Positions 35,341 through 53,435 of a stretch of DNA of 64,000 bases are shown here, in pieces. The position numbers were made by a program, and so were the translations under genes. The stretch's first letter is position 1, and every line of letters starts with the position of its first letter. Under the pieces are notes generated by a model. That model was not told the DNA's origin and searched no databases. It was given only the letters and a program-made list of their open reading frames with translations. Source of the DNA: a virus; the IMG/VR virus record IMGVR_UViG_3300031920_000341, positions 1-64,000 of that record, one strand, 5' to 3'.

Positions 35341-35760
35341 TTATGTTAAAATATAATTTGGATCGGTTCCGTAATCAAAGAATTCAAAATCATTTTGATT
35401 AATTATTATGAATGAATATTCATAAGGATCACGTATTTCAACAATAACAAAGGATTTATCATTGTATTTATATTTTGTTAAATATGTTGTTTGGTCTATA
35501 CTACGTAATGTTACATCATCAACTTGCTCAGATTTAGCAAGGATATGCATTTTAAAAAATCCAAAGTCTTCTGAATCACCTGGTGTATTTACTGTAAATA
35601 ATAAATTTTCTGGTTTTGCTTGTAATAAATCAGTAACCGCATTTACAAGTTTTTCTATACTACCATGTTCTATAATATCAGGTATTGGAGAATCAGATTG
35701 AAAACTAATCCATTCGGTTTTATTTAATCGTTCATTTATGAAGTTATAAAATTCTTTCAT
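35341..35760 (-). CDS. Hypothetical 139-residue protein with T4 capsid-targeting-like N-terminus
   Basis: Begins MKEFYNFINER, strikingly like the T4 internal-protein targeting peptide (MKTYQEFIAEA), with a possible cleavage after INE (residue 10). The rest is an alpha/beta domain with no recognised family. It converges directly on the spike gene with no gap. It may be an internal head protein injected with the DNA; this is an inference from the N-terminus only. Confidence 0.58.
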   Translation of the reverse strand: MKEFYNFINERLNKTEWISFQSDSPIPDIIEHGSIEKLVNAVTDLLQAKPENLLFTVNTPGDSEDFGFFKMHILAKSEQVDDVTLRSIDQTTYLTKYKYNDKSFVIVEIRDPYEYSFIIINQNDFEFFDYGTDPNYILT

Positions 35761-35761
35761 C

Positions 35762-36064
35762 TTACCATGTATGTGATAACCACAATAAATAATTTTCTAT
35801 CGATACTCCATGTGGAACATCATTTAACATTTCGTCAAAATCTGTTCCACTTAGATTAAAATCAACACCATCAGATCTCAGTATATAAATAGTTTTCTTT
35901 TCATCATCTATAATAACTTCCCCGCCTTTTAGTGCCGTATTATTAATATCATCAATTATATCACTATCCAAATATTGCTTTTGTTGTTCCTGATTAGTAG
36001 GAAGCGGATCACCAACAATATTGACAGCCCAATCCTCAAAAAACTCTATTTGGAATGTTTTCAT
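35762..36064 (-). CDS. Hypothetical acidic 100-residue protein
   Basis: An acidic protein starting MKTFQIEFFEDW, with KKTIYILRSDGVDFNLSG in the middle. No family is recognised. The start also has the aromatic/acidic form of a short targeting peptide (FQIEFFE). Its start overlaps the upstream gene by 4 nt and it is 1 nt from the next gene. Confidence 0.58.
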   Translation of the reverse strand: MKTFQIEFFEDWAVNIVGDPLPTNQEQQKQYLDSDIIDDINNTALKGGEVIIDDEKKTIYILRSDGVDFNLSGTDFDEMLNDVPHGVSIENYLLWLSHTW

Positions 36065-36435
36065 TGCGCTTGTGGTAAATCATCATCATCCTCTTCTTGT
36101 GTCTGTATTACACCTGCATCGGGAATTTGAAATTCATCCTGTGTTTCGTCTTGTATATCACCAGGTAATTCCATTGGTAATTCATCTTGCACTTGAGTTT
36201 GAGTTTGAATTTTTGGTTCATTAGGATCAGAAATTGTACTTAATTCGCCTTTAAAATCAAGTATGACTTCATTAAGTTTTTTAAGAGCTGCGTTTAATCC
36301 TGTAGATGCAACTGGTTTTTCACCAAGTAATTCTTGGAATTCTTTATATAAAGCTACAATGTCAGAATATTTGTCTGTCATTATACTTATATTCTCATTT
36401 AACTTGAGATATTGTTTTAAATTAACGAATGCCAT
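36061..36435 (-). CDS. Hypothetical 124-residue acidic protein with DETQ-rich tail
   Basis: Begins MAFVNLKQYLKLNEN, which resembles a capsid-targeting peptide with a cleavage site after LNE (residue 14). A helical middle is followed by a low-complexity acidic tail with QTQTQVQDE, QDETQDEF and TQEEDDDD. The DETQDEF motif is shared with the 7455-8213 protein. First gene of a three-gene set of small proteins. Confidence 0.58.
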   Translation of the reverse strand: MAFVNLKQYLKLNENISIMTDKYSDIVALYKEFQELLGEKPVASTGLNAALKKLNEVILDFKGELSTISDPNEPKIQTQTQVQDELPMELPGDIQDETQDEFQIPDAGVIQTQEEDDDDLPQAQ

Positions 36436-36484: not shown

Positions 36485-37324
36485 TTATTTGCCGCGTAAT
36501 GATTCTAGTTTAGACATTTCAGATGGAAATATTATTCTTTTTCCCGGTTCATATTGACAAGCATGTTCAATATCACGAATTCCTTTTACTAATTTGAATA
36601 ATCCAGAAGGTTCAACCGATGATTTCTGGTCAGAACCCCATAAATCGCGATTTAGAGTCACGTGGCGCTCTATCCACGTTACGCCCATAGAAACAGTAGC
36701 AAATGTGGTTGCAAGCCCATATTCGTGCCCAGAATAGCCCACTTCTGTTCCATATGTATCTTGTAGATGTTTTATGTATAGTAAATTAAGTTCTTCAACT
36801 GGTGAAGGATAAGTTGAACATGTATGCATTATTACATCAGGATTAGCATGACATACCGCTTCTACTATTTGATCTTCTGTACTCATACCTGTTGACATAA
36901 TAAGTATATCTGAATTTTCACGTGCATATTTAGCAAGATCCTCATTAACTAAATGTGCTGAAGGTATTTTTAATATTAAAGGTGTAGATTCTTTTTTATA
37001 TTGTTGTAAAAAATCAACTGAATCTTTATCCCAAACCGAAGCGAACCATTTAATTCCTGCACGTAAACAAAATTCATCTATTTGATCATATTCGGCTTTA
37101 TTGAATTCAACTTTATATTTATATTCCATATAGGTCATTTCTCCCCATGGTGTTTGTTTAATCTTATTACGTTGTTCAATAGGTACACATAATTCAGGAG
37201 TACGTTTTTGAAATTTAACATAATCGCAACCAGCAGCAGCAGCAATTTCAATTAATTGTTTGGCTATTCTTAAATCACCATTTGCATTAATACCAATCTC
37301 GGCAATAATATTGACTTTTTCCAT
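36485..37324 (-). CDS. neuB: N-acetylneuraminate (nonulosonic acid) synthase, NeuB family, without SAF domain
   Basis: 279 residues forming a complete NeuB TIM barrel: AEIGINANGD (9-17), VKFQKRTP near 36-43, KIPSAHL, LIMSTGMST, HTCSTYP, YSGHEYG and ERHVTLNRDLWGSDQKSSVEP at the end. NeuB condenses phosphoenolpyruvate with a 2-acetamido sugar such as ManNAc to make a sialic-type acid. The C-terminal antifreeze-like SAF domain (about 60 residues) of bacterial enzymes is missing. A NeuA-type activating enzyme is encoded at 47508-49517, so the phage carries two consecutive steps of the pathway. Confidence 0.9.
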   Translation of the reverse strand: MEKVNIIAEIGINANGDLRIAKQLIEIAAAAGCDYVKFQKRTPELCVPIEQRNKIKQTPWGEMTYMEYKYKVEFNKAEYDQIDEFCLRAGIKWFASVWDKDSVDFLQQYKKESTPLILKIPSAHLVNEDLAKYARENSDILIMSTGMSTEDQIVEAVCHANPDVIMHTCSTYPSPVEELNLLYIKHLQDTYGTEVGYSGHEYGLATTFATVSMGVTWIERHVTLNRDLWGSDQKSSVEPSGLFKLVKGIRDIEHACQYEPGKRIIFPSEMSKLESLRGK

Positions 37325-37367
37325 TAATATGGTTTTTTTAAATTATACAATTAAAAACATTTAAGTT

Positions 37368-37676
37368 TTATCTTATGAACTCACCTTTTATTGTAAATGA
37401 TTTCCATTCTATACTTTCATTATTCTGTAGTATTTTTTTTATTTTAAATAATTTACTACTTAATCGTATATTTGAGTTTACTCGTATAAATGGACCGCCT
37501 GTGAATTCTATGGATTTAATACTGTTTCCAGCACTATTTCCAAATCCAAGTGTTGTTGCATAAATATCTTTTGCTTTTATTGTTATGGTTTCTTCGTTAA
37601 TTACATTAACATATCGTTCATCGGCATATTTTGAATAAATAACATGCTTTGAACTATGATTAGTTCTTTGTGACAT
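37368..37676 (-). CDS. Hypothetical 102-residue protein
   Basis: A basic, beta-rich protein (TITIKAKDIYATTLG, SIKSIEFTGGPFIRVNSN) with no recognised family. It lies between the methyltransferase terminator and the NeuB gene. Confidence 0.55.
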   Translation of the reverse strand: MSQRTNHSSKHVIYSKYADERYVNVINEETITIKAKDIYATTLGFGNSAGNSIKSIEFTGGPFIRVNSNIRLSSKLFKIKKILQNNESIEWKSFTIKGEFIR

Positions 37677-37700
37677 ACAAATATTTTGTAAGTTTTTAAT

Positions 37701-37732
37701 ATGAAAAGAGGACCAGTCTGGCTGGTCCTCTT
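37701..37732 (-). terminator. Rho-independent terminator after 37739-38656
   Basis: A perfect 11-bp stem, aagaggaccag (37706-37716) with ctggtcctctt (37722-37732), encloses a 5-nt loop. On the minus strand it is followed by TTCAT and a T-rich stretch. It ends the methyltransferase transcript or the whole glycan island transcript. Confidence 0.8.
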
Positions 37733-37738
37733 GGTAAG

Positions 37739-38656
37739 TTAAATTATTTCTGCTTTGGTTGCTGGACGGTATCCTTTCTTTTCAGCAGATTCTTGTGTTA
37801 TCTTTGTTACTCTTTTACCTGTATAATACCAATACAGTTTTTTGCCTGTTCTAGTTTCACCTGCTTCATGCATTTCTTCAATTGCTTCTTTATCTTCGCT
37901 TACATGTTTTGGAATATCTTCATCAATAGGTTCTATTATATCTAAATGTATAGGTTCATCTGGAAAATCAATAATAGGTTCTATAATATCTAAATGTATA
38001 GGTTCTATTAAATCAGGATGCTCAATATATTCTGGTTTAATTTTAAATATAGCATATATTATACCTACGGTATCACTAGCCCATTTTAATTTATATTTAG
38101 TTAATAAACTAAGAATATAATCCATATTTAATAAATTAGCTTTAATTATGTTTTCTTGAGTTATATTATCCAATGTATAGTTTGAATCTATGTTAAATGT
38201 AACTGGGCCTGATCTATAATTCAAAACAATTTCTTTTGCATTAGAATCATTAAGTTTTGTTAAAAACTCATCAGCAATTATTTTATGTGGTAAGTGATGA
38301 ATAACATTAAAACATGTTATTACATCAGGTGGAGTAATAAATAGATTATCAATATACCCATCACCAAGATTTAATTCATATTCAAATTCTGTATTGTCTA
38401 ATACATCTTTAGTTAGCTCTAATGCTTTTTTAACTATATCACTACCTATATATTTTTCAATCTGGTATTTATTTAAATATAACATTTCAGGTAACCATCC
38501 GCCACCGCATCCTATATCAGTTATTACTTTATTTGTTAAATCAATCTGACTTAACCAACCATTTTCCCAATTTTTAATTGTTGGGGTTTTGTGTTTATTT
38601 GTTGCATGTAATAACCAAGCATGTGTGTTATTCCAAAATTTTTCAATATTAATCAT
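37739..38656 (-). CDS. SAM-dependent methyltransferase with EPIHLDIIEPI repeats
   Basis: 305 residues. The N-terminal 200 residues are a class I methyltransferase with the SAM-binding DIGCGGGW near 47-54, an acidic SD near 72-73 and FNVIHHLPH. A linker near 218-245 holds two copies of EPIHLDIIEPI separated by IDFPD. The C-terminal 50 residues (YWYYTGKRVTKIT) form a small basic domain seen in some phage structural proteins. Methylating a sugar of the phage glycan is likely from context. It has its own TATAAATA late element 19 nt before the start. Confidence 0.75.
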   Translation of the reverse strand: MINIEKFWNNTHAWLLHATNKHKTPTIKNWENGWLSQIDLTNKVITDIGCGGGWLPEMLYLNKYQIEKYIGSDIVKKALELTKDVLDNTEFEYELNLGDGYIDNLFITPPDVITCFNVIHHLPHKIIADEFLTKLNDSNAKEIVLNYRSGPVTFNIDSNYTLDNITQENIIKANLLNMDYILSLLTKYKLKWASDTVGIIYAIFKIKPEYIEHPDLIEPIHLDIIEPIIDFPDEPIHLDIIEPIDEDIPKHVSEDKEAIEEMHEAGETRTGKKLYWYYTGKRVTKITQESAEKKGYRPATKAEII

Positions 38657-38675
38657 AACTATTGATTTTTTTTAT

Positions 38676-38683
38676 TATTTATA
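38676..38683 (-). promoter_or_regulatory. T4-like late promoter element TATAAATA (37739-38656)
   Basis: An exact TATAAATA on the minus strand, 19 nt before the methyltransferase ATG, indicating late expression of this part of the glycan island. Confidence 0.6.
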
Positions 38684-38723
38684 TTAAAATCATTATTAAT
38701 TTATTTCTAATAAACAATATACA

Positions 38724-39542
38724 CTAAAGTGTGAAGTTTTTTAGATCTTCAAGTTGTGTTTTTATATCAGGAATATAATATAACATATTGTAGATAGAAC
38801 ATAAAGATTTGTCATGTGCTTCATTTGCATCAACTGGTTCTATTTTTATATTAAGATCATATACTTCATTAATAATTGAAACCAATTCATATTTAGTAAC
38901 ATGTTCAATAAATAAATGTCGAATACCTTCCCAATATTCACCATTGCTTATAATAGATCCTATTATTTCAGCAAGTTTAAGGCAAGTTATACCACTCCAA
39001 ATATGGTTTTTATATCCTGATACTGTTTTATTTTTATTCGATTTAACCCATTCTAATAGAGATACTTTATTATGTAATTCTTCTCCAACAATAGATGTTC
39101 TTATTACTGTACAGTCTTTTGGTTCACCTAATGCTTTTGATTTACCATAAATATCAGTTGCATCTGGAGTATGTATTTCAGAATAATTACCTTCTTTGCC
39201 ACTAAAAACACAATCAGTTGATATGTGAATTAACTCATAATTATAGTTTTTAGTAAATGTATTTAAGTTATGTGGCAATAGTGAATTAAGCGTAATAAAA
39301 TCACCATCTGTATATTCTCTAGTAGATAGTCGTTGTGGTATTAATCCAACACAATTTATTATTACATCACCTTCATTTAAATTATATGGTAAAAATACTG
39401 CTGCTAGTTTGGGTATGGTATTTAAGTGTAAGAAATCCATTTCATTACTTGTTATTGGAATTACTTCAGTAAATATTGAACTAAGATATTTAAACACATA
39501 TCTACCTAACATTCCATTAGCACCTAATACTATTATTTTCAT
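38724..39542 (-). CDS. Nucleotide-sugar 4-reductase, RmlD/WbvR-like SDR
   Basis: 272 residues with the NAD(P) motif GANGMLG (7-13), STDCVFSG (108-115) and catalytic Y132GKSK136. RmlD-type reductases reduce 4-keto sugars. Between a UDP-GlcNAc 4,6-dehydratase and a 2-epimerase it fits the reductase of UDP-N-acetyl-L-fucosamine or UDP-N-acetyl-L-quinovosamine synthesis. It lacks the C-terminal cupin domain of CapF, which favours the WbvR (quinovosamine/rhamnosamine) type. It follows the dehydratase gene with a 6-nt gap. Confidence 0.8.
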   Translation of the reverse strand: MKIIVLGANGMLGRYVFKYLSSIFTEVIPITSNEMDFLHLNTIPKLAAVFLPYNLNEGDVIINCVGLIPQRLSTREYTDGDFITLNSLLPHNLNTFTKNYNYELIHISTDCVFSGKEGNYSEIHTPDATDIYGKSKALGEPKDCTVIRTSIVGEELHNKVSLLEWVKSNKNKTVSGYKNHIWSGITCLKLAEIIGSIISNGEYWEGIRHLFIEHVTKYELVSIINEVYDLNIKIEPVDANEAHDKSLCSIYNMLYYIPDIKTQLEDLKNFTL

Positions 39543-39548
39543 AGTTTT

Positions 39549-40541
39549 TTATTTTTTTAAAAAATCACAATCAGATAACAATTGAAATAAAAATTTATCT
39601 GGTTGTATATTATCTTCAGAAGAAAATTCTTCAAAGTCAACCATCTTCGCTTTATCATAAAAATATGTGCGATTTATATTCAATTGTGGTAATATTACAT
39701 AATAATTCTGATTGAATTTATATGTGCTTTGTGATTCATGTTTAGAAATCAAAAGTTCATGTAATTTCTCACTTTCACGCATTCCAATTTCTTTTATTGT
39801 TGTTTCTTCATTACCATATGATTTAATCAAGATATTTGCTAAATCACTTATAAAAAATGATGGCATATTCATAACAAAGATTTCACCACCTACGCTATTT
39901 TCAACAGCTTCAAATAGTAAACCAATTGCTTGAGGTAATGTTAAAAAATATCTGGTCATTCTAGTATCTGTTATTGTTATTTCATTTTCATTCCTTATTT
40001 GATCAATAAAGAATGGTAAAACACTACCATTTGAACCTAATACATTACCACCACGAATACATATAAAATCTGTATCAGTTGTTAAACTATTTGCTTGAAT
40101 TGTGATTTTCTCGCCTATTGCTTTAGTCATTCCATATAAATTAGATGGCGATACTGCTTTATCTGTTGATACATCAATAAATTTAGTTACTTTATATTTA
40201 ATTGCAATATTAATTAAATTTGTAGTTCCTACTATATTTGTTTTTATTGCTTCTTGTGGTTGATTTTCACATATGGGTACATGTTTTAATGCAGCTAAAT
40301 GAAATACATAATCAATATCATTTATACTAAACATTTGATCTAATACATTTAAATCACGTATATCACCGATTACAAATTTAATTTTTTCATCATTAAATTT
40401 ACGTTGCATATTAACTTGTGCAAATTCACCTCGTGAAAATATAATAATCTTTTTTGGTTTTTTATCTAATAATTGTTTAGTTAATTCATTTCCCCATGAA
40501 CCAGAACCACCTGTTATTAAAATAGTTTTATCATTAAACAT
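39549..40541 (-). CDS. fnlA: UDP-GlcNAc 4,6-dehydratase/5-epimerase (FnlA/CapE/PseB type)
   Basis: 330 residues: TGGSGSWG (10-17), HLAALKHVPICE near 81-92 typical of inverting UDP-GlcNAc dehydratases, STDKAV near 125-130, YGMTK (136-140), RGGNVLGSNGSV and a C-terminal KHESQ segment. It makes UDP-2-acetamido-2,6-dideoxy-4-keto hexoses from UDP-GlcNAc, which its neighbours (reductase and 2-epimerase) would complete. A PseB role for pseudaminic acid is possible, but no PseC aminotransferase is visible. Confidence 0.88.
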   Translation of the reverse strand: MFNDKTILITGGSGSWGNELTKQLLDKKPKKIIIFSRGEFAQVNMQRKFNDEKIKFVIGDIRDLNVLDQMFSINDIDYVFHLAALKHVPICENQPQEAIKTNIVGTTNLINIAIKYKVTKFIDVSTDKAVSPSNLYGMTKAIGEKITIQANSLTTDTDFICIRGGNVLGSNGSVLPFFIDQIRNENEITITDTRMTRYFLTLPQAIGLLFEAVENSVGGEIFVMNMPSFFISDLANILIKSYGNEETTIKEIGMRESEKLHELLISKHESQSTYKFNQNYYVILPQLNINRTYFYDKAKMVDFEEFSSEDNIQPDKFLFQLLSDCDFLKK

Positions 40542-40550
40542 TGTTTATTA

Positions 40551-41612
40551 TTATTTTCCTAATAGAATTTTTATTACTTTATCTGAAACATTAATACAAG
40601 AATAATCTTCCATTAAATTCCATGATATTTCTAAATTCGTTATATTATTATAAGAATTAATCATAGTATCATAATCTATTCCAGTAAGTATAGTTGAACC
40701 ATTTTCGATTAATTCTTGTCGTTCAGTAGATTCTCGTATTATTAAAGAAGGAATATTAAATATTGTGGTTTCTTCTGTTACTGTACCCGAATCACTAATA
40801 ACACAGAATGCATTCTTTTCTAATTTAACAAAATCAAAAAATCCAATAGGTTCAATTAAAATAAGATTTTCATTTATTTTAATTTCACTTTTAATTTTAG
40901 ATTTTGTTCTTGGATGGATTGGAAATATTACTGTTTTATCTAATGATATTGTATTTAAAAATTTAAATATTTCTAATAAATTTTTATTATTATCAACATT
41001 TTCTGATCTATGGATAGTTGTTAATATATATTCTTTTTGTATATTTAATTTATTTAAAATATTGCTATTATCAATTTCCTTTTGATAATAATGTAATACT
41101 TCATAAATAGGATTACCTATTTTATAAACAAAATTTTTATGAAACCCTTCATTTAATAGATTATATTTACTATTTTCAGTATATGGTAAATTATATGTTG
41201 ATGTTAAATCAATTATTTTTCTATTGATTTCTTCTGGAACTCTATCATCATAACAACGATTACCAGCTTCCATATGATAAATTGGAATTTTATATTTTTC
41301 ACATATAATAGAAAGTAATCCAGTGTTAGTATCACCCAAGATTAATATTTTATCTGGATTTTCTCTTTTTAATATCTTTTCAAATTCAATAATGGAATTT
41401 CCAAAAAATTCACCAAATGAATTGAATAAAAAATCAAAATAATAATTTGGATTTCTTATATTTAAATCTTCAAAAAATATAGTACTTAAATTCTTATCAT
41501 AATTTTGATTTGTGTATACCAATACATGTTCAACTAAGTTATCTAATTTTTTAATTATCAAACTGAGTCTAATTAATTCTGGTCGCGTTCCTGCTATTGT
41601 TAGTACTTTCAT
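40551..41612 (-). CDS. UDP-N-acetylglucosamine 2-epimerase family (WecB/FnlC)
   Basis: 353 residues: GTRPELIRL (8-16), GDTNTGL, HMEAGNRCYDDRVPEE near 132-147, TTIHRSENVDN near 213-223, and DSGTVTEE near 280-287. All the usual active-site positions of the non-hydrolysing family are present. As the third enzyme of the neighbouring trio it would epimerise C2 of the dideoxy sugar. It could instead supply ManNAc or UDP-ManNAc for the NeuB step. Its start overlaps the preceding gene's stop as TAATG. Confidence 0.86.
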   Translation of the reverse strand: MKVLTIAGTRPELIRLSLIIKKLDNLVEHVLVYTNQNYDKNLSTIFFEDLNIRNPNYYFDFLFNSFGEFFGNSIIEFEKILKRENPDKILILGDTNTGLLSIICEKYKIPIYHMEAGNRCYDDRVPEEINRKIIDLTSTYNLPYTENSKYNLLNEGFHKNFVYKIGNPIYEVLHYYQKEIDNSNILNKLNIQKEYILTTIHRSENVDNNKNLLEIFKFLNTISLDKTVIFPIHPRTKSKIKSEIKINENLILIEPIGFFDFVKLEKNAFCVISDSGTVTEETTIFNIPSLIIRESTERQELIENGSTILTGIDYDTMINSYNNITNLEISWNLMEDYSCINVSDKVIKILLGK

Positions 41613-42160
41613 TAAAATTTATATGTTCTACTTTCTACATTAAGTTCATAAAATCCCTTTTTAGCAATTTCATCTAATTTCTTAGTTAAATAATTTTTAA
41701 CTCTGTCTTGCCAAATTTTAGAATTTATTGTTTTTACTTCACCATCATGAATAGTAGAATAATGATTTTGTTTAATATATTCAATTGATATTCGATCTAA
41801 CATCTCACCAATACTATATACAATATCATCACTCATCCAAGTTTCAGTTTCATATTCTTTAACTTTACTAAACATTTTATGAATAATCTTATTGATATTT
41901 AATTTACTATTAACTCTCATTTCCCCAACAGTTCTGGCCATATTTTCAAAATATGCTATCTTTTTATAATCAATATCAACCTCTTTTCTACATGCTATAA
42001 TTTCCATATTTGCTTTATAACAAGTAAAATTACTATCACATAATATTATTAGATCATTTTGTATATTTTCATAAATATCTGAACTATTGATAAATACAAT
42101 ATTTCTTAATTCATCAATTAGATTACGAAAATTTATATTCATTAATATTGCTTCTTTCAT
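41612..42160 (-). CDS. Unknown glycan-island protein with SIGEMLDRISIEYIK motif
   Basis: 182 residues, helical. The segment VYSIGEMLDRISIEYIKQNHY (near 108-128) recalls the G-E-x-x-D-R-x-S-I pattern of small unknown proteins often found among glycosyltransferase genes (DUF6165/DUF4254-like). No catalytic function can be assigned. It lies between the sulfotransferase and 2-epimerase genes in the same operon. Confidence 0.6.
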   Translation of the reverse strand: MKEAILMNINFRNLIDELRNIVFINSSDIYENIQNDLIILCDSNFTCYKANMEIIACRKEVDIDYKKIAYFENMARTVGEMRVNSKLNINKIIHKMFSKVKEYETETWMSDDIVYSIGEMLDRISIEYIKQNHYSTIHDGEVKTINSKIWQDRVKNYLTKKLDEIAKKGFYELNVESRTYKF

Positions 42161-42191
42161 ATTACTAATCTTATTTTTATATTATATTAAA

Positions 42192-42749
42192 TTAAATTGA
42201 TTTGTTTCGATGTAATTTCATTTTATTAATTACAGGAATTTCTAAAAAATCACATATTTTTATTACTGAATCATCATCTTGTGTAATATCTATTGTTAAT
42301 AAATCATGTAATCTATCTTTAAAATAATTCTCAACCATTAATTTATGTGAGTCATAAACAAAAGAAAACCTATCTTTATTAAAATAATAAGTACCAAATG
42401 TTATTAAATGGTGATGTATAGTTTCCTGTTTTGAATTAGGATTATTAATCATACGATCCCAATGCTTTTTAATTGATACTAACCAACTTGATTTTTTTCT
42501 GATTGTATAAATAAATTTACTATTGGGATAAGTTTTATCTACTTGAGGAAATATCATTTCAAATGCATTAGTTATACCATGGTATCTGTTTAATGTATCA
42601 AATGTGTAAATTCCCTTATACATCTTATTTCTTATTTCTTCACATACTGGACTACCAAAATGTATAGTTTTTATATTATTGTTATTTAATATACCAGTTA
42701 AACTAGATGTAGCAGTTTTTGGTAATCCTATTCCAATTACTTTATTCAT
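42192..42749 (-). CDS. Sulfotransferase family protein
   Basis: 185 residues beginning with the 5'-phosphosulfate-binding loop GLPKTATSSL (8-17). A second pattern, NSKFIYTIRKKSSWLVSIKKHW (near 75-97), matches the 3'-phosphate-binding region (usually F.Y..R.P..W..S). It would move sulfate from PAPS to a sugar or protein hydroxyl. At 185 residues it is short for the family but retains the core. Sulfotransferases are unusual in T4-like phages; the surrounding glycosyltransferases suggest a carbohydrate acceptor. Confidence 0.8.
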   Translation of the reverse strand: MNKVIGIGLPKTATSSLTGILNNNNIKTIHFGSPVCEEIRNKMYKGIYTFDTLNRYHGITNAFEMIFPQVDKTYPNSKFIYTIRKKSSWLVSIKKHWDRMINNPNSKQETIHHHLITFGTYYFNKDRFSFVYDSHKLMVENYFKDRLHDLLTIDITQDDDSVIKICDFLEIPVINKMKLHRNKSI

Positions 42750-43502
42750 TTATTCATTAGACATATTTTCAGCACCCTTTGGTCTCTTACCTTTTCTTTC
42801 AACAGCTTCATAATGATAAACAATAGAATCCATGCTCATTGTAAATTTAGCACCAGCATCATGACAACGTTGAAAAAAATTTCTATCTGGTGTACCATTC
42901 TTTAATGTTAATTCCCAAGGACCAGCTATTTCCCAAAATCTTTTTGGAATTAAATATGGCATAGTATTAGTATTTTTCCAACCACCTCTTTGTTGTTCAG
43001 TTTCTAATTTATCAGATTGGTATAGTTTTTTATACAACTCATTAAAATCAGACATATTAAATTTTCCATATTCTGGAATTCCAAGATTAGCATGAACAAC
43101 ATGTTTACCAATATTTTTAGGATGAATATGTATTGAGTTAACAATATCATTTTCATTGGCATGTTTCATTAAATTAATTAACCAATCTTTACCAAAATAC
43201 TGGTCAGTATTAACTAAACCACAATAATTATTTAATTCAAACCCATAATTAAACCCATCATTCATCATTCCCCTTAAATTTGGAACATAACCAACATTAT
43301 CAATAGTTTTATGCTCAATTATATGAATATTTCTATATTGTTTTAAATCTTCTAAATAATAAATAACTTCTTGTGAAGGTAACCATGTTACTACAATATA
43401 ATCAAAATTATCTGTACCTGCATTATTATAAATTGAATCAGTTGAAAATTTTAACATTTCTAATGCTGTTGAAACACAATTAAAAATTGATACTCTTTCC
43501 AT
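42750..43502 (-). CDS. Glycosyltransferase, family 2-like
   Basis: 250 residues. A nucleotide-diphosphate-sugar binding start with DNFDYIVVTWLPS, a NVGYVPNLRGMMNDGF helix and LVNTDQYFGKDW, where TDQ takes the DxD position, are followed by an acceptor region (PYLIPKRFWEIAGPWELTLKNG) and a DRNFFQRCHDAG motif of GT2 type. It ends in a basic tail. The sugar and acceptor are unknown. It is 1 nt from the sulfotransferase gene and overlaps the methyltransferase gene by 1 nt. Confidence 0.72.
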   Translation of the reverse strand: MERVSIFNCVSTALEMLKFSTDSIYNNAGTDNFDYIVVTWLPSQEVIYYLEDLKQYRNIHIIEHKTIDNVGYVPNLRGMMNDGFNYGFELNNYCGLVNTDQYFGKDWLINLMKHANENDIVNSIHIHPKNIGKHVVHANLGIPEYGKFNMSDFNELYKKLYQSDKLETEQQRGGWKNTNTMPYLIPKRFWEIAGPWELTLKNGTPDRNFFQRCHDAGAKFTMSMDSIVYHYEAVERKGKRPKGAENMSNE

Positions 43503-44077
43503 TACTTTAATTTTATTTTTTCTTTTATTGCTAAAAATGCATCATCGCAATTTAGTTCACTGAATATATAAATATCATATCCATGTTTCTCATATAATGA
43601 TGGATCTAAATTAATTAAATGTTTTTGATATTTATTATTTGTTTTTGTTATACATAAATCATTATTACTTTTTCCAACTGGTCCACCTAAAATAGCATAT
43701 TTATAATTCATATTTTCAATTCTATTAAATATGATATCGTGTTCTTCTTGTGTTATATGTTCTAATGTATGATGACAAATAATTACATCAAAATCATCTT
43801 TAATATCATAATCTAATATATTCATACATATATAATCGCCAGGAGGACCATTTTTTCTTCTCCATAATACATCAGCTTCAAAAATATCAATACCCTTTAT
43901 ATCTTTACTATTAAATACAGAATATAATAAATCATTTTCTGGAAAATGCATAGGATGTGAAACAAATGAACCACATCCTAAATCTAAAACAGTTGTTATA
44001 CTGTTTAAATCTAACTTTTCTTTAAGCATATTAATTATTGAGTGAATTCTTTTCATAATTTTTAATTTATTTTCCAA
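43502..44077 (-). CDS. SAM-dependent methyltransferase (glycan island)
   Basis: 191 residues with TTVLDLGCGSF near 24-34, GIDIFEAD for the acidic loop, and DVIICHHTLEHI near 104-115 in motif IV. This is a complete small class I methyltransferase. It is one of three consecutive methyltransferases, overlapping its neighbours by 1 and 16 nt; a glycan hydroxyl is the probable acceptor. Confidence 0.8.
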   Translation of the reverse strand: MENKLKIMKRIHSIINMLKEKLDLNSITTVLDLGCGSFVSHPMHFPENDLLYSVFNSKDIKGIDIFEADVLWRRKNGPPGDYICMNILDYDIKDDFDVIICHHTLEHITQEEHDIIFNRIENMNYKYAILGGPVGKSNNDLCITKTNNKYQKHLINLDPSLYEKHGYDIYIFSELNCDDAFLAIKEKIKLK

Positions 44078-44685
44078 ATACTCATACTACGCTTCCATCT
44101 ATCTTCATTATGAATTTCTAATGGTTCACCTAAATCAAAGGGTTCAATTTCTAAATTTATTGGTTTCCATCCACATTCCATTTTTAATTCCTTTGGAGTT
44201 AATTCATTGTTCTTTTTAACCCACCTTTGTTCAGTTGCTAATAAATATGTAGATTTACTATCCTTAAAATTTTTAAGTGTTCGTGATACAAAATCATTAG
44301 GTAAATGAAATAAACAATCTCTACAAATTATTAAATCGGTTTTAGGTAATATTTCTTCACACATATCAAATTCAATAAATTTAACATTTGGATTTTCTTC
44401 TTTATTTCTTTGAATAATTAAATCATTAATATCATATCCTATATAATCAATATTTCTATTAGGTAAATCTAACAAGTATATCCAATTTTGATATACGCCA
44501 CTTGGACTATCACTAATAGATGTAATATTATATTTTTTTAATATATCATTTATAAAATCAATAGTTCCTTCCTCTTTGATATGTTTATCAACTGAACCCG
44601 GTCCATTTGGTGGTAATTTTTTCCCCACCTGTAAGTTATAATAATACTTTTGTGATTCTTTTAATTTCATAATTATTTCTCCCAA
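44062..44685 (-). CDS. SAM-dependent methyltransferase-like protein
   Basis: 207 residues. The usual glycine-rich loop is altered to SISDSPSGVYQNW near 56-68, but DYIGYDINDLII, FIEFDMCEEILPKTDLIICRDCLFHLP and ATEQRW follow the class I methyltransferase order. The likely start is MKLKESQ (residue 6). The degenerate motif I leaves some doubt about activity. Confidence 0.68.
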   Translation of the reverse strand: MGEIIMKLKESQKYYYNLQVGKKLPPNGPGSVDKHIKEEGTIDFINDILKKYNITSISDSPSGVYQNWIYLLDLPNRNIDYIGYDINDLIIQRNKEENPNVKFIEFDMCEEILPKTDLIICRDCLFHLPNDFVSRTLKNFKDSKSTYLLATEQRWVKKNNELTPKELKMECGWKPINLEIEPFDLGEPLEIHNEDRWKRSMSIWKIN

Positions 44686-45200
44686 ATATATGTTCCAATT
44701 TTTACTAATCCATTTGGATTAAATCCTACATGAATTGATTTATAATTAAATAGACTTGTCAATTCTTCATCTTTCCATTGATATAAATGACTTTCATATG
44801 GATTTCCTATCTTATTACCATCTTGTTTACATAAAGAAATTGGTATTGATAAATATATTTTTTTAATGTGCTTTATGGCCTCTTTCATAAATATAATAGC
44901 ATTATCATAAGTTAAATGTTCTAATACATCACCTAATATCATTATATCATATTTCTTTTTTGTATAATCAAAATTAAGCATATTAACATTAAATAAATTA
45001 TCATAATGCTCATCTAATTTAAATTTTACTATATTAGGTTTCCATATTTCAACACCATCTATTGATTTAACTTTACCTTTGAGTTTTTTACCCCATTTTC
45101 CTTCACCTGCTCCAATATCTAAAACATTAGTATCGGATGTTTTTAAAATTTCTTGGAATATTAATTCTATTCCACCATCGGGTTGTTGTGATTCTGGCAT
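44673..45200 (-). CDS. SAM-dependent methyltransferase (glycan island)
   Basis: 175 residues with NVLDIGAGEGKWG near 24-36, DGVEIW as the acidic loop and YDIMILGDVLEHL near 84-96. This is a complete small class I methyltransferase. It overlaps the following methyltransferase gene by 13 nt and follows the GT32-like gene. Confidence 0.8.
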   Translation of the reverse strand: MPESQQPDGGIELIFQEILKTSDTNVLDIGAGEGKWGKKLKGKVKSIDGVEIWKPNIVKFKLDEHYDNLFNVNMLNFDYTKKKYDIMILGDVLEHLTYDNAIIFMKEAIKHIKKIYLSIPISLCKQDGNKIGNPYESHLYQWKDEELTSLFNYKSIHVGFNPNGLVKIGTYIWEK

Positions 45201-45203
45201 AAC

Positions 45204-46070
45204 TTAGTTTATTATTTTTTTTATGATATCTCTTACTGAGTTATCAAATTGCATGTAATTATCAGCTGTAACTTTATCATTATATGGTCTCGAATGACTA
45301 GGATTTCCACCATACCAATGGATTCCTACTACATTTTTATGTATCATTTGACTATTATTTTCTGAAAAAGTCATTGCTGCAGATTGTTTAATATTTGTTT
45401 TAGCAAAAGGAAAGACAATATCTTCATCCATTTTATGTATTTTTAAATCTGTAAATTTATTTATAATTGCATATAAAGATGAATAGCCAATTGCATTTGT
45501 ACCACATGACTCATATACAGCAGGATTATATTTTTTAATACTATTGTGATATATCTCCTCATATAGTCTATTCTTGCCGTCTAGTGTGACCTTAGAGACC
45601 ATGAAGGATACTGGGATATAATTCTTCCAATAGTCATAATTACTAAGATTAACATTGGCATCCCAATCTATTAATTCATTTTCATCTAATGTATTACAAA
45701 AAAGAATATCCATATCAGCAACAATACAAGTTCGTGTAGCTAATAAATACCAATTAAGTATATCTTTAAACTGAACATTACATATATCTTTAATATTCTT
45801 AAGTTCGATTGGAACTATATTTTCTATGTTTATTATATTCAATTTAGGTATATCAAATAGCTTTAATCTATAATCTTCACCATTATAAAATTCATCATCT
45901 TGTTTTGGTTCTTTTATTGATTTATTCCATTTATTAGTATTAGGCTTTTTATCATCTAATATTAAGTTAATAGTCCATTCTGGGTTATGAAAGCTAAATG
46001 ACTTTATTGTCAAATATCTTAAAAATGACATTGATTGATTTCCCCAGAAAAAATATATTTGCTTTTCCAT
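45204..46070 (-). CDS. Glycosyltransferase, GT32-like (DXD)
   Basis: 288 residues. IYFFWGNQSMSFLRYLTIKS at the N-terminus, NPEWTINLILDD and RTCIVADMDILFC (DMD as DxD, near 132-134) match small sugar-binding DXD glycosyltransferases. The C-terminal GIHWYGG (near 255) is the usual closing motif of this group. Sugar specificity is unknown. Confidence 0.75.
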   Translation of the reverse strand: MEKQIYFFWGNQSMSFLRYLTIKSFSFHNPEWTINLILDDKKPNTNKWNKSIKEPKQDDEFYNGEDYRLKLFDIPKLNIINIENIVPIELKNIKDICNVQFKDILNWYLLATRTCIVADMDILFCNTLDENELIDWDANVNLSNYDYWKNYIPVSFMVSKVTLDGKNRLYEEIYHNSIKKYNPAVYESCGTNAIGYSSLYAIINKFTDLKIHKMDEDIVFPFAKTNIKQSAAMTFSENNSQMIHKNVVGIHWYGGNPSHSRPYNDKVTADNYMQFDNSVRDIIKKIIN

Positions 46071-46077
46071 GTTCGCT

Positions 46078-46851
46078 TTATTTTTTATTTACATGTATAA
46101 TAGATTCTTGTTGAATTTCAGCATACAGTAGATTATTCTTCTTTGTTAAAACTGGTTCATATATGGTTGGTTTATGATGTTGATGTAAAACAAATGGATT
46201 ATCTATCATTACGATATTCATGTTCATTCGTTTTATCCTTAATACAAATTCCATATCATCTCTACCTATTCCATATGCAAATCGTTCATCAAATCCACCA
46301 AGTTTATCTAGATCCTTTTTGCTTATAGCACTACAAAAGTGTAATAATGCTGGTCTATACTTACTGTGTTGATACCAAGCAGAGTCTTTAGTATTAAATA
46401 ATCTTCTATTTTTTATTGGTTGTATTACATCAAAAGCTTTTTTTCCTTTACTTATATTTTCAAATTCCTTTTTATTGCTTGCATAACAACCAAATACCAA
46501 ATATTTGTTATCTTCTATTTCACGATTTACTGTTTTAATTAATTCACCAATATGTAAACATTCGGGATTTTGAATTATTACAACATCACCAGTTACTTTA
46601 GCGAAGCCTATATTATATGGTACAGATGGATTAACCCACCATTTATCTTTTTTTGAAATTTTAATTACAGTTATATCTAATTTGTTAAATAAATGAGGCA
46701 TATCATCTATATTATGTTCATCTGAGCTATTATCATTAACTATGATTATTTCTAAATTATCATAATGTTGATTCATAATAGAATTAAGTGTATTTATGAG
46801 ATGGATCCTACGATTATAATATGACATTACTATAGAAATTTTCATATACAT
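46078..46851 (-). CDS. Glycosyltransferase family 2
   Basis: 257 residues with the GT2 start ISIVMSYYNRRIHLINTLNS, IIVNDNSSDE (near 36-45), YNIGFAKVTGDVVIIQNPE and the acceptor/catalytic region GGFDERFAYGIGRDDMEFVLRIKRM (near 188-212). A typical inverting GT-A enzyme for chain extension. It follows the 216-residue glycosyltransferase gene by 1 nt. Confidence 0.86.
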   Translation of the reverse strand: MYMKISIVMSYYNRRIHLINTLNSIMNQHYDNLEIIIVNDNSSDEHNIDDMPHLFNKLDITVIKISKKDKWWVNPSVPYNIGFAKVTGDVVIIQNPECLHIGELIKTVNREIEDNKYLVFGCYASNKKEFENISKGKKAFDVIQPIKNRRLFNTKDSAWYQHSKYRPALLHFCSAISKKDLDKLGGFDERFAYGIGRDDMEFVLRIKRMNMNIVMIDNPFVLHQHHKPTIYEPVLTKKNNLLYAEIQQESIIHVNKK

Positions 46852-46852
46852 A

Positions 46853-47503
46853 TTAATTTTTTATCCATGTTGTAAATCCCATATTTTTACTACTACTTTT
46901 AGCTAATTTATGAGATTCTCTCCAAATTCTACCAATATCATTTACGATTATATTACCCTCTGAAATTGAATTATATTCAGGATAATTTAGCATAATATAA
47001 TTAGACTCAATTTGTCTTAATTGTAATTCTGGACAATTATTAAATAATAATTTTTTTGCCATACTTTGTGTCCAACTGCCTTTAAATAAACCAGGAGAAA
47101 GTCTAATTCTAAATTTATTTGAATTAAAGAGATATGCATTTAAACTTACACCAAGAATATTATTATCTGAATCAATCATTTTTATAAGTGTATTAATATC
47201 AACTGGTCTATTTAATAACCAATCATCTTCAAGATTAAATACATACTTAGATATTGCATTTTTCCATACCCAACTTAATGCTTTAGGAAAATTACCTTTT
47301 TTAGGAAAATTACATTTTACTGTATTAAAGTATTGTTTTGCTACATTAACAACATCAATTTGGTTTGTTGTTGGTATTGGATCAATATTTATGTATAATG
47401 TACAATCTTTAATATCTATTCCATATAAATTTTTACTAAAACTAGAATATGTTTTATCAATTAAATCAGGTCGTACTGTTGCTGTTGTTGTAAATGATAT
47501 CAT
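46853..47503 (-). CDS. Glycosyltransferase, GT2-like
   Basis: 216 residues. FTTTATVRPDLIDKTYSSF at the N-terminus, FPKALSWVWKNA and YVFNLEDDWLLNRP (EDDW in the DxD position, near 93-96) show a GT-A fold. It lacks some C-terminal elements and is short. It lies 4 nt downstream of the NeuA fusion gene. Confidence 0.7.
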   Translation of the reverse strand: MISFTTTATVRPDLIDKTYSSFSKNLYGIDIKDCTLYINIDPIPTTNQIDVVNVAKQYFNTVKCNFPKKGNFPKALSWVWKNAISKYVFNLEDDWLLNRPVDINTLIKMIDSDNNILGVSLNAYLFNSNKFRIRLSPGLFKGSWTQSMAKKLLFNNCPELQLRQIESNYIMLNYPEYNSISEGNIIVNDIGRIWRESHKLAKSSSKNMGFTTWIKN

Positions 47504-47507
47504 AATT

Positions 47508-49517
47508 TTATTTTTTTTCTATTTCTATTAATGGTTTATAATCAAGAAATTGATTTAATTTAGAATTATTAGTTAATGATATAAGATTAAATCCTTTATT
47601 TTTTAATGATAAAAAATTTGCTTCAACTTTTTTAAATCTATCATTATACCAATTTGGGTTATTATCATGTGGATTCCTTGTATCATGTACATTTGACCAA
47701 AAATGATTTTTATTATCATCATAACTTAAACTTACAGCATAAATATAATACATAGTTTCAAATCTTTTATTACCAAAAATATATTTATCAAATATATCTA
47801 TAGCTGTTGAAGTTGAATCTGGGTATTTTGATCTATCGATTCTATTAAATAATTTAAGTTCACCACTTCGTATAAGTTTAGATGTTAATCTATGGTGTTT
47901 ATTATTAGAGGCATGTACTAACCAATCACTACATACTAAATTCATACTCTTTAAATCAGCATTGCTTTCAATTAATTCTAATAAAATATCAACATCATTA
48001 AAAAATAAGTAATCAGTTTTACAATGTAACCACGTACGATTAATACCAATAGTAATTATATTATCAGGTATTTTGTTAATATCAAGATTAGTTAAATTTT
48101 TATCATTACCTAAAATTAATATTTTCCTTCTAATTTTACTATCAATAATTTTATCTGCTTTAATATACCTTTTCATTTTTCTGATTTCATGTATATCAGT
48201 AAATTTATTAACATATGGTATAAATTCATTTATTAATGAATTATTAGTTATAGATACTATATCATAACCATTTTCAACCATATTTTTTACTGACATTACT
48301 ATACTGTAATATTCTGAATTAATTGTATCTTTATCAATTTCACGTATTGGTTTAAAATCTGTATTTTCCCATATTAATGAATTTGGTGTATATACAAAAT
48401 CCATTCCACCTAAATAAAATTTACAGTCATAATCTAAAAATATAATATTTGTAAAGATTTCTATTATAGAAGATACATTATTTGATTCATATTGTGTTTT
48501 ATCATTATTATATATTGTTAAATTTTTTTGTCTAAGTAAATCTTTTACGACATTAAATCTTTTACTACTTTTTGCTGAAGTTAATAGTTTATTTGATGCG
48601 ATTAAACGATATTCTTTTATTGTATTATGTTTATATTTTGATATTTCTATTAATTGATTTATATCATCAACATAATAATAATCTGGTTTATTTATTAGCC
48701 ATGATCTATTTAACCCAACTACTATAATATCTCTTGGTAATTTATTAATATTAATATTACGCATACTTTTACTATCACTAAGTAATAAAATATTCATAGG
48801 TGGTTTTACTATTTTATCTTCTAATATATGTTCTGTTAATTCATTAGTGTCTATGTTATAATTATTTACAATACTATTTTCTAAGAAATTATTAAGTTGA
48901 GATTCTAAATCTATATCAAGTACATCATTTTCTAAATCAAAAAATATTGTATCTTTATTATAAAGGTTTAATGTTAATTTTTCAATTTCACTCACTTTTG
49001 CAATAGCAATATAGTGTGACATTTCAAATACATCAGGATGGTCTTGTCTTCTATAATAATCAGTATTTGTTAATGGTGTACCATGTATTCCATCTATTGA
49101 TTTATAAAAACATAAAAATGGTGAAGATTTTGGTTCCTTTTTACATAATAATGATTTAGCTTTTTCTTTTAATATCATAGTATATGCAGATTCAACATGT
49201 TCCCATTTTCTTTCAGGATATGTTAAATATAATGTTAATATAAAATCTGATGATTTTAATGTTAATTCATTTATGAAATGAGATAATACTTCTTTTGTAG
49301 ATGCAGTATCAGAAGCAATTTTATCTGGTCTAATAATATAATTAACATGATTTTCTTTACAATAGTTAATTATTTCTTCATCATCAGTACTAACATAAGT
49401 ATTTTCTTTAAGTTTTTCTGGAATTATGCTTAAAGTATATGGCAATAATTTCCTGTTTTTGAATGGTGCACCTTTTGATCCACGTCTTGCTGGTATTAAA
49501 ATGTATAAGTTATTCAT
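47508..49517 (-). CDS. neuA: NeuA-type cytidylyltransferase fused to two Maf/DUF115-like domains
   Basis: 669 residues in three parts. Residues 1-215 are a CMP-sialic acid synthetase: IPARRGSKGAPFKNRKLLPY (8-27), VSTDDEEI, IIRPD, LTYPERKW and DIDLESQL at the domain end. Residues 241-440 and 464-669 are two related domains, each opening with a strand (ILLLSDSKSM; ILILGNDKNL), then NINKLP/DINKIP and GLNRSWL/GINRTWL, and including FYLGGMDF in the first copy. They resemble the DUF115 domain of Maf proteins that attach nonulosonic acids to flagellin. The fusion would activate a NeuB-made acid with CTP and transfer it. The gene overlaps the upstream Maf-like gene by 8 nt. Confidence 0.8.
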   Translation of the reverse strand: MNNLYILIPARRGSKGAPFKNRKLLPYTLSIIPEKLKENTYVSTDDEEIINYCKENHVNYIIRPDKIASDTASTKEVLSHFINELTLKSSDFILTLYLTYPERKWEHVESAYTMILKEKAKSLLCKKEPKSSPFLCFYKSIDGIHGTPLTNTDYYRRQDHPDVFEMSHYIAIAKVSEIEKLTLNLYNKDTIFFDLENDVLDIDLESQLNNFLENSIVNNYNIDTNELTEHILEDKIVKPPMNILLLSDSKSMRNININKLPRDIIVVGLNRSWLINKPDYYYVDDINQLIEISKYKHNTIKEYRLIASNKLLTSAKSSKRFNVVKDLLRQKNLTIYNNDKTQYESNNVSSIIEIFTNIIFLDYDCKFYLGGMDFVYTPNSLIWENTDFKPIREIDKDTINSEYYSIVMSVKNMVENGYDIVSITNNSLINEFIPYVNKFTDIHEIRKMKRYIKADKIIDSKIRRKILILGNDKNLTNLDINKIPDNIITIGINRTWLHCKTDYLFFNDVDILLELIESNADLKSMNLVCSDWLVHASNNKHHRLTSKLIRSGELKLFNRIDRSKYPDSTSTAIDIFDKYIFGNKRFETMYYIYAVSLSYDDNKNHFWSNVHDTRNPHDNNPNWYNDRFKKVEANFLSLKNKGFNLISLTNNSKLNQFLDYKPLIEIEKK

Positions 49518-50169
49518 TGAATAATTCTAATTTTCCCTTAGGTACACCAGTTATAAGACTATGTTCACTTAAATTAGAAAGATGTGTACCATTTTTTTTT
49601 AACTGTTCATATAAGTATTTATAATCTTTACTTATTCTTTCAACATAACCACGTTCAACTAAATTATGTTTTCCATCATTGGCATAAAAATGATTATCGG
49701 TAAAATCAACACCAAGCATACTAATATGCTTAGCTCCCATTTTATATGCTAATATAATTGCAATAAATGGTGAGTTATTACTGTAATCTAATACCATTGC
49801 ATCATCTTTTAATGTTGCTAAATGTTTTGTGCCAAGTTCAAATAAAACTTGTTTCTTCATATCATGTAATTTCCAACCCTTTATTTGGGTAAATACATAT
49901 TTAGCATTACTATTATATACCGATTTATATCTAATACCTTGAAATTTAGCTGGGTGGTCAACAACTAATAAATATGTCGGATCGATAAAACGACCTATAT
50001 CATTAACACCAATAGTTATTAGTTGTTTATAATTTGGTATTTTTACAATATCTTTAACAGAAGTTCCACATCCTAATACAAGGATTTTTTCATCTTTATG
50101 AATATCCTTGAATTCTGATATATTCATATGGTATAAAACATTTATATTATTATATAGAAAAAAATTCAA
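49510..50169 (-). CDS. Maf/DUF115-like probable glycosyltransferase
   Basis: 219 residues with a nucleotide-binding start [13 protein letters not shown], then [39 protein letters not shown] and [12 protein letters not shown]. This order matches stand-alone DUF115/Maf-type and related sialyl- or LPS glycosyltransferase-like domains, and it is the same fold as the two domains fused to NeuA. The open frame starts at 50169; an internal ATG at 50127 (MNISEFKD) is a plausible start. It is the first gene of the glycan island operon. Confidence 0.7.
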
Positions 50170-50207: not shown

Positions 50208-51164
50208 ATGGTAAAAGATTATTACAAAATATTAGAAGTAAAAAAAGATACATCTCAAAAGGATATTAAGTCAGCTTACAGAACATTGGCTAAGAAATAT
50301 CATCCAGATAAAAATCCAGATAATAAAGAATCGGAAGCTAAATTTAAAGAGATTGTGGAAGCATATGAAGTACTGAGCGATAAAACTAAACGTGCCGAAT
50401 ATGATAGACCAAAAAATTATAATGGTTTTGGTAATGGATTCACTGGAGCATATGGTAGACCATTTAATAATGGCCGTGGATATAGTGGAGCAGAATTTGC
50501 TAAAATGGTTAGGATTAGACAAGTAAAGGAACAATTAACATTAGGATTTTTATCAAGAGTTGAATTAAAAAACATAATGCTTGGTGAAACTATTAATATT
50601 AATTACAAGAGAGAAACAGTATGTTTAGAATGTAGACATATGGTAAATAAAAATAATTGTAAAGTTTGTAATGGTAGTGGAATTATAGTTGAAAATACAA
50701 ATGCTACATTTGAAATAAACATTTCAAAAAATAGATATACAGTAGAAATTATTAATGGTATATCTACACTTCGTTTAGAATTATCTGAACGTGGACATCA
50801 AGCATTGGTTGAAGATACAATAGTAACCGGAAATTTAATTATACGAGTTGAAATAATAACTAATAAAAATGTTGAATTAAATTTCTTTAATGGTAATATT
50901 ATACATTTAGTAGATATCAACCTGGTAGATTTATTAGACTCCCATATAAAATTAAAGACTATACATGATAAAGAAATCAAAATGTCTTTAGAAAATAAAC
51001 AAATTGCAAGTAATGGGAAATTACGTATACCAAATTATGGATTACCTAACGCTCAAGCCTTTGGTGATTATTTTTTCAAGTTAAATATCAAATTACCTGA
51101 CTTTAGTAAGCTATCAAAAACTAATAGACGTAGGTTAATAAACATTTTAAATAAACTAGAATAA
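50208..51164 (+). CDS. dnaJ: DnaJ-like co-chaperone with reduced zinc domain
   Basis: 318 residues. A complete J domain comes first (YYKILEV, HPD at 32-34, YEVLSD, YDRP), then a Gly/Phe-rich linker (about 70-100), two C-terminal beta domains and a dimerisation end (PNYGLPN). Only two CxxC pairs (CLEC and CKVCNGSG) remain of the usual four, so only one zinc site can form. It would stimulate host DnaK during virion assembly or replication. It is divergent from the glycan operon and followed by a terminator. Confidence 0.9.
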
Positions 51165-53433: not shown

Positions 53434-53435
53434 AA

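Follow-up and report, generated by a model that had tools for sequence, protein, structure and literature searches.

What would a phage do with a dense cluster of sugar-enzyme genes lodged beside the genes for its own particle? We addressed this question for an island at positions 36485-50169 of the window, by which we mean the whole 64,000-nucleotide stretch analyzed here (bases 1-64000 of the 208,266-base virus record IMGVR_UViG_3300031920_000341). Most of the island's 17 open reading frames (ORFs) carry sugar-enzyme signatures in Pfam, NCBIfam and PHROGs profile searches and in comparisons with the PDB. An earlier sequence-only reading had described a glycan island tightly packed on one strand, and all 17 ORFs lie where it had placed them, on the minus strand, neighbors being -16 to +67 nt apart and coding density reaching 98.3%. 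The GC content of the island is 25.0%, compared with 28.6% in the remaining window. Matches to T4-type PHROG families came from the record's major capsid protein (MCP), head protease, portal and baseplate hub. On balance, we favor the explanation that the island serves the phage itself as an exchangeable glycosylation cassette, with a virion protein as its likely acceptor.

Putative synthesis and activation genes for a nonulosonic acid

The island encodes a NeuB-type nonulosonate synthase (36485..37324, minus strand, 279 aa), which matches PF03102 with 204.8 bits against a cut-off of 22.1 (E 2e-60). Its nearest solved structures are the pseudaminic acid synthase PseI (8h2c, E 2e-27) and a sialic acid synthetase without a SAF domain (6ncs, E 4e-24). 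The motifs SGHE, IERH, AEIG, VKFQ and KIPS, aligned with those of PseI 8h2c, are all kept; we take them to supply the metal-binding histidine pair and the substrate lysine and glutamate. The C-terminal SAF/antifreeze-like domain is absent, the PF03102 match ending before the SAF region, and it is likewise absent from the solved 6ncs (290 aa). Because the protein falls below the equivalog cut-offs for N-acetylneuraminic acid (Neu5Ac) and pseudaminic acid (Pse) synthases (TIGR03569, 195 versus 400 bits; TIGR03586, 150 versus 340 bits), we do not assign the exact nonulosonic acid (NulO). In a tree of NeuB proteins, the window NeuB clusters with those of unrelated phages rather than with its own clade; since this placement is borderline (p-AU 0.051), acquisition by horizontal replacement is only suggested.

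The presumptive activating enzyme is a NeuA-type CMP-sugar synthetase domain (aa 1-225), fused to two GT42-like domains in a single gene (47508..49517, minus strand). It matches CTP_transf_3 (E 5e-8) and, the Mg-binding DxD falling into register, CMP-Neu5Ac synthetase 6ifd (E 3e-13), and Pfam bears out both the NeuB and the NeuA assignments of the sequence-only reading. The ARxGSKGxxxKN-type motif for cytidine triphosphate (CTP) (ARRGSKGAPFKN) and the DxD metal site (VLDIDLE) are kept in alignment with NmNeuA and conserved in relatives. In bacteria, SAF-less NeuB of the same kind is often fused to NeuA.

Neither a NeuC-type hydrolyzing epimerase (model TIGR03568) nor a DegT aminotransferase was found in the record, and NeuD and DegT-like genes occur in some relatives only. 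We rejected synthesis of Pse or legionaminic acid (Leg) by the record, given that it holds no DegT aminotransferase. As the record also has no enzyme that makes N-acetylmannosamine (ManNAc), the substrate of NeuB must come from the host. The proposal that the island makes, activates and transfers a NulO thus keeps all three steps, the last with the structural evidence given below, and loses its de novo route, which is incomplete.

Several islands of relatives contain, between NeuB and the GT42-like gene, a HAD-like ORF of about 100 aa with an IDIDDT motif (L076 11171-11473, L066 11319-11615, L045 11815-12117), which is absent in the window. Judged by its sequence, it could be a NulO-phosphate phosphatase, and a phosphorylated NeuB product would then be implied in these three islands.

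Transferases resembling GT42 sialyltransferases

The gene MafN (49510..50169, minus strand, 219 aa, with a probable start at Met15, about 50127) encodes a putative GT42-like, CstII-type nonulosonate transferase, as judged from an AlphaFold model and profiles. The model, built from a 37-row alignment, has a mean predicted local distance difference test score (pLDDT) of 90.4, and its best PDB folds are CstII, followed by a Pasteurella sialyltransferase and human ST8SiaIII, with CstI also among the top matches. Searched against the PDB, the MafN family profile finds CstII at E 2e-7 and CstI at 8e-7, and Maf (5mu5) at 0.06 only. The NeuA fusion carries two further GT42-like domains, D1 in the middle (about 48168-48818, minus strand) and D2 at the end (47511-48152, minus strand). 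The structure of D2, predicted separately from the rest of the fusion (pLDDT 87), has CstI as its top PDB match (E 1.4e-5) and matches the CstII fold too. The CstI/II fold is therefore the top PDB match of two independent domains, MafN and D2 (probability 1.00), and the families of these two share homology (hhalign 95.9%). Identity of the phage domains to CstI and CstII is ~12-18%, and the phage domains are shorter. A DGxH conserved in the MafN proteins of the clade is a candidate only for the catalytic histidine, while D1 has SLIWEN in place of SHFWK, without the nearly invariant histidine of the family, and may be catalytically inactive.

These three domains had initially been called Maf-like. 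They are real, and in structure searches and profiles they fit GT42 sialyltransferases better, with the reservation about D1; on this resemblance, NeuB, NeuA and a sialyltransferase-like transferase form a set. Maf, which puts NulO on flagellin, has a central domain (pfam01973) that is itself structurally similar to Cst-II (PMC11339370). MafN is a single domain in a phage context and shows neither the three-domain Maf architecture nor a flagellin operon. Weak matches of the MafN profile in bacterial loci were disregarded, as NeuA sequence from the fusion had contaminated the profile.

A slot with variable content between structural genes

We collected related loci in scans with NeuB and with the MCP (80 loci each) and typed 49 of them for slot content. 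Gene order is constant throughout the MCP clade (52-62% identity) and runs hub / slot / DnaJ - protease - MCP. In the window, the slot is bordered on the left by a gp5-like baseplate hub protein (34597..35340, plus strand; PHROG baseplate hub, E 2e-13) and on the right by a DnaJ-like co-chaperone (50208..51164, plus strand; PF00226, 94 bits), both syntenic in relatives. Beyond DnaJ follow the head maturation protease and the MCP (51313..55166, plus strand; PHROG 207 and 138). Structural genes do flank the island, as had been claimed; the late promoter elements also claimed there dissolve into background, the T4 late promoter motif TATAAATA occurring 31 times against 30.5 expected, without enrichment. 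DnaJ adjoins the slot in nearly all subclades and is missing from this place in L082.

The nonulosonate island fills the slot in 21 of the 49 loci, the window included, with MafN and NeuA beside DnaJ and NeuB usually at the far end (type B). Nine loci have an empty slot, the hub lying directly beside DnaJ (type A), and nine hold unrelated sets with GT2, RgpF, GT92, WbsX, FkbM and GT10 families (type D). A NeuB relative without the metal-site histidines, together with a small Cys-rich protein, is found in eight (type C). The slot holds MafN alone in L082, the window's nearest MCP relative (type E, 1/49), and small ORFs only, the Cys-rich one included, in L133 (type F, 1/49). MafN is the most conserved gene of the slot; it is syntenic in type-B relatives and is the sole transferase remaining in L082.

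Five changes are needed to explain these slot states on the MCP tree. Both type C and L133 are nested inside the B group, and the island was therefore probably lost in these lineages, with type C retaining a NeuB relic. The original observation is real and for the most part accurately described, its interpretation is partly supported, and the island is now better explained as a glycan slot in one of its states. The type-C NeuB relatives are open, 250-263 aa long, and lie beside a Cys-rich protein of ~95 aa in at least eight phages (L126 6123-6881, L176 6107-6868, L182 3852-4637 and others); they may be relics or repurposed pseudo-enzymes.

Linkage of NeuB, NeuA and sialyltransferase homologues

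Linkage was followed by whole-record searches in 17 relatives, most of them not known to be complete, so that absences cover recorded bases only. All three records with a full island have NeuA; in the other 14, four of them 250-271 kb long, none was found. MafN was found in those three records and in L082 only. Full NeuB turned up in the three full-island records alone, while two type-C records gave weak relics. NeuB and NeuA thus travel together with the GT42-like gene in related phages, a co-occurrence that the sequence-only reading had named as a check. Type-B islands also contain homologues of GT29, the eukaryotic-type sialyltransferases (7/98 accessory ORFs); among the MCP-fetched loci, these occur in 6 of the 20 assigned to type B and in none of types A, C or D. 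The L066 island has a NeuD-type acetyltransferase, narrowly above cut-off. From the linkage of NeuB, NeuA and MafN, the bacterial NeuB-NeuA fusions and the GT29 and NeuD companions, we conclude that the donor sugar is very probably CMP-NulO.

Short NeuB genes proved common in viral contigs in the NeuB scan. In INPHARED, only two records hold a NeuB relative: the 484-kb phage LR756508, which has NeuA too, and marine virus AG-345-L05. GT29 homologues are frequent beside NeuB and NeuA in phages, with about 42 strong ORFs among the loci fetched (L045 11165-11815, L107 4165-4794, L016 6402-6932, L083 27025-31843 and others), five of these ORFs lying in LR756508.

A separable deoxy-sugar module

The island also encodes the dehydratase, reductase and 2-epimerase trio recognized in the sequence-only reading, all on the minus strand and each with a Pfam match. 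The 5-inverting UDP-GlcNAc 4,6-dehydratase of the PseB/FlaA1/CapE type (39549..40541; Polysacc_synt_2, PF02719, 332 bits, E 3e-99) matches FlaA1 2gn4 (E 8e-72) and CapE 3vvb (2e-65) in the PDB. The RmlD-type NDP-4-keto-sugar reductase (38724..39542, 272 aa; RmlD_sub_bind, PF04321, 70 bits, E 2e-19) has homologues in four other viral contigs, and its query against genome contigs gave no match. The non-hydrolyzing UDP-sugar 2-epimerase of the CapG/WecB type (40551..41612; Epimerase_2, E 4e-84; CapG 7ya2, E 1e-95) scores above the TIGR00236 wecB cut-off. We rejected this enzyme as a ManNAc-forming NeuC on model scores, since it reaches 69 bits with TIGR03568 against a cut-off of 236. Next to it lies a 182-aa partner without a family match (41612..42160, minus strand), a homologue of which adjoins the 2-epimerase in L183 too (128 bits).

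Two known pathways can be set beside this trio. The CapE/CapF/CapG pathway to UDP-N-acetyl-L-fucosamine (L-FucNAc) uses the same types of dehydratase and 2-epimerase, whereas the phage reductase is RmlD-like and lacks the cupin domain of CapF. The WbvB/R/D pathway to UDP-N-acetyl-L-quinovosamine (L-QuiNAc), with an RmlD-type reductase, a 5-inverting dehydratase and a 2-epimerase, fits by gene type, and an RmlD-like reductase without a cupin is closer to the logic of that pathway. In the absence of a cupin-bearing CapF/FnlB-type reductase from the trio, its product is most likely L-QuiNAc or N-acetyl-L-rhamnosamine (L-RhaNAc) rather than L-FucNAc. The idea of a separate L-deoxy-hexosamine route, put forward as L-FucNAc or L-QuiNAc, therefore survives with L-FucNAc as the less likely member.

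The trio and its 182-aa partner form a second, separable module, present in L183 and L184, in whose records no NeuB was found. In L183 (7914-10001), and also in L184, an intein-like insertion splits the homologous 4,6-dehydratase gene at a motif conserved in the enzyme, separating VYH from CAALKHV.

Remaining genes of the island and record

Four glycosyltransferases had been proposed, all on the minus strand. The GT2 enzyme at 46078..46851 is supported directly (Glycos_transf_2, PF00535, 54.6 bits, E 2e-14), and two are supported via homologues only: a probable DXD glycosyltransferase (45204..46070; 42 bits to a protein of L183 with a passing score for PF04488, Gly_transf_sug) and a probable GT-A enzyme (46853..47503; homologues in type-B islands, of which the one in L045 matches PF00535 at E 1e-4). 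The fourth (42750..43502) is GT-A-like by eye and a possible glycosyltransferase, with zero matches in Pfam, NCBIfam and PHROGs. The sulfotransferase (42192..42749, minus strand) is well matched (Sulfotransfer_4, PF17784, 60.5 bits versus a cut-off of 22.8, E 3e-16). Three of the four proposed S-adenosylmethionine methyltransferases, all on the minus strand, pass a Pfam cut-off, namely those at 43502..44077 (PF08241), 44673..45200 (PF13489, 36 bits) and 37739..38656 (PF13489, 30 bits, with a C-terminal extension); the other (44062..44685) remains a probable methyltransferase, matching several Methyltransf families below threshold (E 1e-3).

A 102-aa ORF (37368..37676, minus strand) has no family match and no assigned function. 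The interval between hub and NeuB, also within the slot, holds three small minus-strand ORFs without a family (35341..36435), one of which, 139 aa long, is also present in L082. Shine-Dalgarno motifs lie upstream of 1 of the 17 island genes and 0 of 16 flanking genes, and such scarce use is usual for Bacteroidota hosts. Elsewhere in the record (179667-180695; L091 2667-3692), a thymidylate synthase of 342 aa is longer than usual and matches models in several pieces, which suggests that it holds inserted segments.

Relation to known phages and glycosylation systems

The best named MCP relatives are the uncultured huge phage LR756500 and Prevotella Lak phages. Set beside the published description, the clade is probably that of the 2025 moraphages. 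That account presents moraphages as T4-like, aquatic, DnaJ-bearing phages of 200-307 kb with Bacteroidota hosts, sister to the Lak phages; it calls four core orthogroups glycosyltransferases and leaves islands of variable composition for future work (PMC12619734). Compared by description, the window may fit this clade in its T4-like genes, DnaJ, Lak-phage neighbors and sparse Shine-Dalgarno use, and differs in the NulO genes and the slot, which the parts of the account consulted do not describe (PMC12619734). In the literature searched, which comprised open-access papers only, we found no phage nonulosonate genes. For mycobacteriophages with glycosylated virions, we know of no NulO synthesis module. 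These phages, unrelated to the window phage, bear glycans on the capsid and tail tube subunits of their particles (Freeman 2023, as cited in PMC12619734).

Compared with the Maf/NulO systems for flagellin, the island is phage-encoded, has single-domain transferases nearer GT42 than Maf 5mu5, fuses NeuA to two transferase domains and lacks the precursor enzymes. Those flagellin systems modify a polymeric structural protein without a lipid carrier. Shared with O-glycosylation of flagellin in Campylobacter and Clostridium (NeuB/PseI, NeuA/PseF and Maf) are a cytoplasmic synthase, a CMP-synthetase and a Cst-II-like transferase (PMC11339370).

Discussion

From the gene identities, folds, linkage and slot polymorphism, which are directly established, we propose a scheme of enzyme activities, sugar identities, step order, acceptor and purpose. 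NeuB would condense a host-supplied N-acyl-mannosamine-type sugar with phosphoenolpyruvate into a nonulosonic acid of the sialic-acid family, the NeuA domain would activate it with CTP to CMP-NulO, and MafN and the GT42-like domain fused behind NeuA would transfer NulO from this donor. Starting from UDP-GlcNAc, the dehydratase, reductase and non-hydrolyzing 2-epimerase would yield a UDP-2-acetamido-2,6-dideoxy-L-hexose, with L-QuiNAc or L-RhaNAc the likeliest identities, and the GT2/GT-A enzymes would assemble this L-deoxy-HexNAc into a short glycan, which the methyltransferases and sulfotransferase would then trim. All steps would be cytoplasmic, with a virion protein as the likely acceptor, and relatives would alter their coat by exchanging the entire slot content.

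Several points weigh against this scheme. The fold matches to CstII are moderate (TM-scores of 0.43-0.56), and Pfam assigns the domain, below cut-off, to MptE-like proteins. Since, in addition, Pfam CST-I (PF06002) gives no match for the window MafN and matches 2 of 37 family members at E<0.01, we speak of a GT42-like family rather than of a proven GT42 member. The NulO branch has to draw on host metabolites, as the record has no enzyme for making ManNAc or a precursor of Leg or Pse. The glycan and its acceptor protein are predictions from the genes, a place beside structural genes is no proof that the target is structural, and the island could serve host-surface changes by way of host lipid carriers.

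That last possibility leads to the idea that the island remodels the host surface, modifying lipopolysaccharide, capsule or S-layer during infection, for instance to block superinfection or to hide the receptor and so keep progeny from being caught on debris. Many homologues are surface-polysaccharide enzymes, NulO and L-deoxy-hexosamines are typical of O-antigen and capsule, and the GT42 enzymes with solved structures have lipooligosaccharide as their target. Yet the 17 proteins include no flippase, polymerase, ligase or initiating prenyl-phosphate transferase, and a simple hydropathy scan found no membrane segment in any of them; lipid-linked export is thus not encoded, which favors a cytoplasmic protein acceptor. 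In every subclade, too, the neighbors of the slot are hub, protease and capsid genes. Its place beside the hub and MCP genes, taken with the missing membrane, flippase and polymerase proteins, strengthens the case for virion decoration, and we regard host-surface remodeling as unlikely. Our best guess is that a virion protein is glycosylated in the cytoplasm.

Two other explanations seem weaker still. The island might be a passenger, host-derived surface-polysaccharide genes in partial decay and of little function, as the GC content below that of the flanks, the degenerate look of D1 and the inactive-looking NeuB relic or empty slot of sister phages could indicate; we consider this improbable, because the 17 ORFs are intact and tightly packed, NeuB and NeuA keep their catalytic motifs, and the NeuB-NeuA-MafN set is kept in 21 of 49 typed relatives. 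Alternatively, the sugars could be put on phage DNA as protection against nucleases, like the glucosylation of DNA by T4-like phages. The several glycosyltransferases of the island would suit this, and the moraphage authors raise it for their core glycosyltransferases (PMC12619734). The record's thymidylate-synthase family gene, however, passes the model for true thymidylate synthase (316 versus a cut-off of 108), on which ground we rejected DNA hypermodification. No hydroxymethylase was recognized in the record, whose annotation beyond the window is incomplete. The island is optional among relatives, and we know of no NulO-DNA transferase; we hold sugar-modified DNA to be very improbable.

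In this phage, a make-activate-transfer set for a sugar of the sialic-acid family is linked gene by gene. Phage glycan clusters are usually read as lists of glycosyltransferases without an assigned use. Here, neglected 'MptE-like/Maf-like' proteins gain a testable function, and many unannotated phage proteins that share the GT42-like fold gain annotation leads. Empty, unrelated, relic and full slots at one place are a natural comparison series in which the purpose of phage glycosylation is directly testable, and the moraphage paper calls for the study of just such variable islands (PMC12619734). We also advance, as a tentative idea for which we would give slightly less than even chances, that this is a T4-like clade with a glycotype slot, in which each lineage encodes its own virion coat, from none through unrelated glycans to a CMP-activated NulO that phage enzymes make and that GT42-like and GT29-like sialyltransferase homologues of the phage attach. 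If true, this would amount to a phage version of capsule-type switching, achieved by cassette exchange, and the phage would in effect sialylate its own particle.

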